Below are positions 4,385 through 5,467 of a stretch of 40,969 nucleotides of DNA, in pieces. Every line of letters begins with the position of its first letter. Within the stretch, counting starts at the first letter, position 1. The notes beneath the pieces are model-generated. The model ran no database searches. It was given only the letters and a program-made list of their open reading frames with translations, and was not told the DNA's origin. The position numbers and the translations under genes are program-made. The stretch spans positions 1 through 40,969 of the forward strand of contig JANXSX010000131.1 of assembly GCA_025356475.1 (NCBI GenBank), read 5' to 3'. Source of the DNA: Isosphaeraceae bacterium (GTDB taxonomy: Bacteria > Planctomycetota > Planctomycetia > Isosphaerales > Isosphaeraceae).

Positions 4385-5062
4385 TCAGGCGTGTTGCTTC
4401 GCGCTCTGCGAGTCCTCAAGCAATTGGCGAGCGACATCGTTGAGAAACTGCACATCTGTCGCGTCGAAGGACGGTGAAGAGAATCCATGAGCAATCTGAT
4501 TTCGCAGACGAAACATCGCTTCCATCTGATGAAACTCATCCGTGTCCAGAACACCCGACGAGTAGAGTTCATTGAGCATCCCGCGAGGCTCTGTTCCCCA
4601 ACCGGCGGTTTCTCCCGCCGCACGAAGCCTCATCCGCATTGCGGCCTCGAAACCAGCCCATGCGGTGATCAGGGCAGGACGAATAAATCCAGCTCGTACC
4701 ATCTCTTCAGCTTCGGCGAGGACCTTAGTGAGATCTTCGTCAGAAAATTCCTGGGCTCCTCGAAGTTCTCTCGATCCTGATTCCTCAGCTTCCAAAATGA
4801 CGAAGTCGAATCTCCAGTGAGGTTGCTTGCTCGTGATCTCGGCATACCGCGAAATGTTCGTATCGGCAGCCAATTCCTCGCGGTTTTTCTTAACCGCGAC
4901 CAACACACCCTCGGCTGCTCTTCTGCCGACAAGCTCAACCTTGAAATCGTGAGCAAACGGGGGAAGGTTTACCGCATTTGGATCAAGGACGACTTGATAC
5001 CCTTGGCCAGTGTAATGCGCCGCGATGCGATCCAATTCTTGTTGAAAGTGCATAGGGTTCAC
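4385..5062 (-). CDS. REase-like (Holliday-resolvase-like) plus HEPN-like protein
   Basis: The product is 225 residues from a GTG start at 5060-5062. This start overlaps the stop of the RusA-like gene as GTGA, pointing to translational coupling; an in-frame ATG follows at 5051-5053. The N-terminal 95 residues look like a restriction-endonuclease fold: GYQVVLDP, then FAHDFKVELVGRR with Asp39, a strand VLVAVKK ending in Lys58-Lys59, and WRFDFVIL at 83-90. In the usual D-ExK motif the Glu would sit at residue 56, where Ala is found. The C-terminal half is helical and holds RLRNQIAH, with RNQIAH at 187-192 fitting the RNxxxH signature of HEPN RNases. I recall a Pfam family of REase domains resembling archaeal Holliday junction resolvase with this look, but did not check it. 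Possible role: nuclease acting with the RusA partner, perhaps in defence or DNA repair. Function is inferred. Confidence 0.72.
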   Translation of the reverse strand: MNPMHFQQELDRIAAHYTGQGYQVVLDPNAVNLPPFAHDFKVELVGRRAAEGVLVAVKKNREELAADTNISRYAEITSKQPHWRFDFVILEAEESGSRELRGAQEFSDEDLTKVLAEAEEMVRAGFIRPALITAWAGFEAAMRMRLRAAGETAGWGTEPRGMLNELYSSGVLDTDEFHQMEAMFRLRNQIAHGFSSPSFDATDVQFLNDVARQLLEDSQSAKQHA

Positions 5063-5467
5063 CTGGGGAGTGGGTGTGGATTGGCCGCATCCTCGATGCG
5101 GATGTATATGAATTGCTGTCCTGTTTGCACAGCGTCAACAAGTACTTTGGATGCCCCTGCGATAATCATGGGTTCATCGATCCGCACATGACTTATCTCT
5201 GCCTGTCGAATCTGGCAATCGTCATCATAAATTAACTTGTTCATTACATCGTGAACCGGCTTCGACATGTTGTCCACGTCAAGGGGTGGTTTATCGCCTA
5301 GGTGGAAGTTGATGACAATGGCCTTTAGCTTTCCCTTCAATGGAGCAGTCGTCCATTGTTTCTCAGCCTCGCCGCGTACGGAAGCTTTCCATCGATTCAG
5401 GGTGATCTGAATTAGGCGACTGATTCGAGATAGGCGGTCCAAGAACCACAAACTCCAGATGCATCAT
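5059..5467 (-). CDS. RusA-family resolvase, apparent frameshift near its start
   Basis: RusA enzymes are dimeric Mg-dependent nucleases that cut four-way DNA junctions. The core is clear: PPLDVDNMSKPVHDVMN followed by YDDDCQI reproduces the DxDNxxK and distal Asp motifs that form the active site. The open frame carrying this core has no ATG; it begins at a TTG (5449-5451) just after a stop. In the neighbouring frame, ATG ATG at 5467-5462 preceded by GAGGT opens a peptide MMHLEFVVLGPPISNQS and on to NSDH, exactly the expected first strand of the family. It meets the core frame at a CCC run (plus 5400-5402) if one base is removed. So the gene is either broken by a +1 insertion, subject to slippage, or misread at this base. 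Without correction the first frame stops after about 12 further codons. It overlaps the REase/HEPN gene by GTGA. Confidence 0.75.

Follow-up and report, generated by a model that had tools for sequence, protein, structure and literature searches.

HEPN RNases are widespread effectors in bacterial immunity and toxin systems, where their control usually lies with nucleotidyltransferases, nucleotide messengers or CRISPR components. Both RusA and Hjc belong to the junction resolvases. A fusion of HEPN-M (DUF86) to an archaeal Holliday junction resolvase-like (AHJR) REase domain appears in Table 1 of the HEPN survey by Anantharaman et al. 2013 (PMC3710099). The same architecture (Pfam PF18743, AHJR-like) is found in the second of two adjacent genes analyzed here, which lie in a 40,969 nucleotide stretch of an Isosphaeraceae bacterium genome (contig JANXSX010000131.1), referred to as the window. 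RusA, the family of the first gene, is absent from the main text of PMC3710099, and what sets the present module apart from the published fusion is its strict RusA partner, its pattern of invariant motifs and its transfer as a cassette. Thus the AHJR-HEPN fusion has been known since 2013 while an obligate RusA partner of a HEPN-based module is apparently unrecorded. The HepT/MntA (type VII) toxin-antitoxin system (PMC7641770) likewise has a HEPN R-x4-H motif in a two-gene module. However, HepT is paired with an MNT nucleotidyltransferase whereas the partner at the paired loci here is RusA, the HEPN domain here carries an N-terminal Hjc-like domain, and the acceptor tyrosine of the HepT/MntA HxY motif is absent in all 21 gene 2 sequences (the window reads RNQIAHGF). 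AbiV, a two-component anti-phage HEPN RNase (PDB 9bj6), is also a HEPN effector with a partner but has neither an Hjc-like domain nor RusA, and it typically lacks the H of Rx4-6H (PMC3710099). E. coli RusA (PDB 1q8r) shares the RusA family profile and the DxDNxxK...DD core with gene 1, but the paired RusAs form a clade separate from the other planctomycete RusAs tested and are tied to AHJR-HEPN.

The first-pass annotation of this DNA had suggested that the pair could be an unrecorded module, and this is plausible as neither a PADLOC model nor an open-access description was found. At E values up to 10, a search of PADLOC-DB 2.0.0 (5027 models) returned nothing for either protein, and the NCBIfam HepT_toxin model matched only below threshold (15.8 against a cut-off of 60). 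No relevant link between RusA and HEPN was found in the open-access papers searched.

The RusA homologue and the AHJR-HEPN gene are two minus-strand genes read from the window translations at 5467-4385. As had been described, the pair sits between housekeeping genes, ispH/lytB and pyrB by Pfam, with a sugar isomerase-like and a pyrR-like gene as judged from their translations. The features of the window copy are listed in the table.

Table. Features of the RusA and AHJR-HEPN genes in the window
Feature	Position	Strand	Basis
RusA-family nuclease gene, frameshifted	5059..5467	-	Translations; PF05866 E 2e-9; alignment to intact L002, L003, L027 and others
RusA catalytic core DVDNMSK (D-x-D-N-x-x-K)	5260..5280	-	19/19 paired RusAs spanning the core; alignment with E. 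coli RusA 1q8r
AHJR-HEPN gene, 225 codons from GTG 5062; likelier start ATG 5053	4385..5062	-	ORF; comparison of starts with relatives
Archaeal-Hjc-like REase domain, residues 8-95; active site altered	4778..5041	-	PF18743 E 2e-16; Hjc model matches; motif alignment
HEPN domain, about residues 101-225	4388..4762	-	Model against HEPN structures; L008 over PF01934 cut-off
HEPN R-x4-H motif RNQIAH, residues 187-192	4487..4504	-	R and H in 21/21 sequences

Gene 1 had been annotated as a RusA-family nuclease with a DxDNxxK core encoded by one gene at 5467-5059. The family and the core were borne out. The window RusA scored 38.4 bits against PF05866 (cut-off 22.8) and its relatives also exceeded the cut-off, and the catalytic motif (DVDNMSK) is present along with the downstream D. 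The DxDNxxK motif was invariant in the paired RusAs that span the core, and the DxDNxxK...DD core aligned with E. coli RusA 1q8r. The span as one gene did not hold up, as it is not a single ORF and the N-terminus and the catalytic part lie in different frames. From the ATG at 5467 one frame encodes MMHLEFVVLGPPISNQS, which is the conserved N-terminus of RusA, but stops after 34 codons, and the rest of the gene with the catalytic core is in another frame which is open from 5451 to 5059 without stops. The frameshift site falls within 5415-5467, between the conserved N-terminus and the catalytic part. Relatives read MHLEFVVPGPPISNQS into the catalytic part unbroken and loci with a complete RusA encode it in a single frame. 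The N-terminal strand, intact in one frame in the other complete relatives, is therefore out of frame with the catalytic part in the window. As assembled, the window RusA is frameshifted by either a recent mutation or a sequence error, because the remaining frame is stop-free and the catalytic core is kept. Programmed frameshifting was considered and judged less likely than mutation or sequence error, since the other complete homologues are single-frame and no slippery run is seen at the junction. The window copy is probably without a working RusA, and with its decayed REase site it is probably a partly broken representative of the module.

The two genes had also been reported to overlap by GTGA. 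This tetranucleotide is present at 5062-5059 but is probably not the true start of gene 2 judging from its relatives. In most planctomycete relatives the gene 2 ATG lies 7-8 nt past the first base of the RusA stop codon, the window equivalent being the ATG at 5053, and several other members have a one-base overlap of RusA and gene 2. Spacing was always tight, with the gene 2 start lying between 1 nt ahead of and 8 nt beyond the first base of the RusA stop.

For gene 2 the first-pass annotation had proposed an REase domain joined to a HEPN-like domain and had made the claim depend on the predicted fold. Both domains were recovered, with the PF18743 match and the RNQIAH motif in the window copy (see table) in agreement with the fold. 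An AlphaFold2 model built from two sequences, of moderate confidence (mean pLDDT 66.6), has an alpha/beta N-terminal domain and a helical C-terminal domain. The N-terminal domain matched archaeal Hjc structures (1gef Z 7.1 over residues 2-94, 2wcw Z 6.7, 1ob8 Z 6.5). The C-terminal domain matched HEPN structures (2hsb Z 10.2 over residues 100-224, Csm6 HEPN Z 9.9, HepT Z 8.9, others Z 8-10), and AbiV was also among the fold matches (Z 6.5); a helical-bundle Z below 13 is indecisive alone, but most of the top rows were nonetheless HEPN entries. Foldseek against the PDB gave no match below E 0.001, with HEPN entries at the head of the list, and the fold support comes from the VIA alignment. The model supports an Hjc-like fold joined to a HEPN fold. 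Profile comparison pointed the same way: the gene 2 family profile matched the ST1444 resolvase (E 0.006), PF18743 matched gene 2 relatives up to E 1e-48, and the Ti plasmid relative L008 exceeded the Pfam PF01934 HepT-like cut-off.

The active sites of the two gene 2 domains have fared differently. HEPN domains are defined by Rx4-6H with an upstream Ex3[KR] (PMC3710099), and the window has both, as RNQIAH and EAAMR. The R and H were invariant in all 21 gene 2 sequences and the upstream acidic residue of Ex3[KR] was conserved. The N-terminal domain shares its fold with the archaeal Hjc/Hje resolvases, but the metal-binding D...ExK site was intact in only 5 of the 21 sequences, and the window has E in place of D and AVK in place of ExK, which departs from the catalytic pattern. 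Because the RusA DxDNxxK is kept in 19/19 and the HEPN R/H in 21/21 while the REase site is kept in 5/21, selection evidently maintains the DNase site of RusA and the RNase site of HEPN, and the Hjc-like domain often looks like a binder.

Adjacency of the two genes, which had been proposed from this one locus, was conserved when counted by profile search. A gene 2 alignment search of 397 genomes of the class found 15 full-length AHJR-HEPN members, 14 of which had the family-specific RusA directly upstream. In the reciprocal direction, a RusA profile search of the same number of class genomes gave 14 strong places (E <= 2e-18) followed by a gap to 4e-9, and all 14 of these family-specific RusA genes adjoin a full-length gene 2; no intact RusA with its partner missing was found in this small sample, and since paired members were the source of both profiles, unpaired members at a greater distance could have escaped detection. 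Extending the search to the whole phylum added no full-length member from outside the class. Plasmid searches with the Rhizobium sp. T136 gene 2 and with its RusA recovered the same six alphaproteobacterial records, three from Rhizobium and one each from the Agrobacterium Ti plasmid pTi_CFBP2177, Azospirillum and Methylobacterium. The T136 RusA gave one extra short weak match, and the window gene 2 also recovered a HEPN-only Cupriavidus protein without RusA. HEPN-only relatives (L004, L012, L014-L019 and others) were rejected as family members as they have no RusA neighbour and different N-termini.

Three loci departed from the intact pair. The lone gene 2 without a RusA match (L052) has a short upstream stretch resembling a RusA C-terminus (about 1420-1500), and at L028 a truncated RusA (2166-2432) lies beside an open AHJR-HEPN gene. 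In these two loci and the window an open HEPN gene with both R and H persists next to a RusA that is frameshifted, truncated or an apparent remnant, suggesting that the partners are not always needed together. All three were found by searches starting from gene 2, so the direction of this asymmetry is biased. Short direct repeats resembling a mobile-element end were seen just upstream of the RusA truncation at L028.

The history of the pair was followed in both genes. The paired RusAs formed one clade with 100/100 support, apart from 17 other planctomycete RusAs, in a tree based on a rough bootstrap with some long branches. RusA and gene 2 distances correlated across 19 loci (r = 0.92) and 0 of 5000 permutations reached as high a value. 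The window's own genome contains a second copy on contig C223, whose gene 2 protein is 79% identical to that of a genome from a different family (G606). The DNA identity between these copies (82%) is confined to the module, so the pair moves as a minimal cassette. Another C223 protein groups with the window's own family (67-75% versus 47%), and contamination was thus considered far less likely than lateral cassette transfer as the source of this copy. Module DNA is likewise shared between the rhizobial and Ti copies, which have separate blocks in common elsewhere. In genomes of the same family gene 2 was only 51% and 38% identical where PyrC was 80% and 73% identical. Module GC was 51.8% compared to 56.8% for the window, within the lowest 1% of same-size windows, and was below the surroundings at most other loci. 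The earlier suggestion of a small transferred cassette is therefore supported by the module-only DNA shared between families, the low GC and the divergence greater than that of PyrC. Values of dN/dS were 0.04-0.19 for the pairs that could be estimated, indicating purifying selection on both genes. By these comparisons RusA and AHJR-HEPN are inherited and transferred as a pair in distantly related bacteria. A phage origin was considered and rejected: nothing in the phage records matched gene 2, matches to the RusA were weak and partial at most, and two pattern-limited scans of viral contigs found nothing.

The suggested check for neighbouring defence genes gave a mixed answer. Several of the rhizobial plasmid copies lie close to AbiE, Mrr-type restriction, Gabija-like and PD-Lambda-2 genes, but such genes were mostly absent near the planctomycete copies, which lie mostly among ordinary genes outside defence islands. 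One Rhizobium copy has an AbiEii nucleotidyltransferase upstream, an arrangement that was not conserved. On the Agrobacterium Ti plasmid (L008, 1-5263) the pair is beside imuA, a Y-family polymerase, an error-prone DNA polymerase and ligD, and xth was found a few kb from one Rhizobium copy.

Sequence comparison and the structural model establish two families with predicted folds that are strictly paired, inherited together and transferred as a unit under purifying selection, with invariant RusA and HEPN motifs and a decayed REase site, and the pairing points to an undescribed DNA-triggered defence or damage-response device. We tentatively read it, at somewhat less than even chances, as a horizontally transferred two-gene nuclease module that serves as a branched-DNA-triggered conflict module with a HEPN RNase effector. 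Protein 1 would be a RusA-fold DNase for branched DNA. In protein 2 the RNase motif of the HEPN domain is complete, and the Hjc-like domain to which it is joined probably binds DNA rather than cutting it in most copies. Both RusA and the Hjc-like domain would target one and the same branched DNA, in the form of Holliday-like or replication/recombination intermediates arising from phages, plasmids or damaged forks. This would release the HEPN RNase to cut cellular or invader RNA, leading to growth arrest or abortive infection. The RNase activity, the triggering by DNA, the physical interaction of the two proteins and the defence or stress role are what we infer in this scheme. A bolder form of it, which we consider somewhat unlikely, is a new class of DNA-structure-triggered immunity, a two-gene cassette moving between bacterial lineages in which RusA and a catalytically dead Hjc-like sensor detect or create the branched DNA of invaders and switch on a cell-stopping HEPN RNase.

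The pair could instead be an accessory operon for DNA repair or recombination in which RusA serves to resolve junctions and the Hjc-HEPN protein has a structural or RNA-processing role, for example in R-loop clearing, that helps replicons cope with damage without killing or immunity. RusA and Hjc are both junction resolvases, many copies sit among housekeeping genes, and the repair-type genes beside the Ti plasmid copy and the xth near the Rhizobium copy fit this role. The patchy distribution, cassette transfer, low GC and fast divergence compared to PyrC would however be unusual for core repair, and a HEPN RNase motif that stays invariant next to a decayed REase site suggests that the protein cuts RNA. 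We regard this explanation as unlikely, but it stays a serious rival because planctomycete copies have few defence neighbours and the Ti plasmid copy lies next to error-prone polymerase and ligD genes.

Two small, tightly coupled genes on a mobile and patchily distributed module, with the putative antitoxin first, would also suit a toxin-antitoxin system in which the HEPN protein is the RNase toxin and RusA the antitoxin, and HEPN toxins are commonly one half of such pairs (PMC3710099, PMC7641770). A free toxin should not survive, yet the window, L028 and L052 retain an open HEPN gene and its R/H pair despite a damaged RusA. An invariant RusA catalytic core would be needless in a pure antitoxin, and the tyrosine that is adenylylated in HepT (RX4HXY) is replaced by F, L, V, A or D, making this an improbable reading. 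The same three loci, with RusA broken or missing and the partner intact, would be expected if RusA were the harmful nuclease and AHJR-HEPN restrained or targeted it, as loss of RusA would then be tolerated while the partner persists. The lack of an intact RusA without its partner in the 397 genomes, a small sample, fits as well. However, the searches began from AHJR-HEPN and are biased to this direction, and a harmful RusA leaves the conserved HEPN RNase motif unexplained. This is the most doubtful of the readings considered.

Obligate pairing of a HEPN protein with a nuclease of the Holliday-junction type, together with a decayed resolvase domain, would suggest that branched DNA itself is the trigger. 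Intact versions of the pair are present on plasmids of well-studied rhizobia, and with two small proteins a branched-DNA trigger is directly testable. Several relatives lie outside the paired family. A related planctomycete HEPN family of ~235 aa (L014/L039 480-1848, L015, L016, L018, L019) is without a recognised Hjc-like domain or RusA; it occurs as tandem copies in genome G426 and one member has a DUF4145 match. A 300-aa relative (L005, 1132-2031) has a decayed AHJR-like part, a HEPN part reading RNMIVH and an extra C-terminal region, without RusA. In the control genome, Caulobacter vibrioides, a PF18743 match over the cut-off was also observed.
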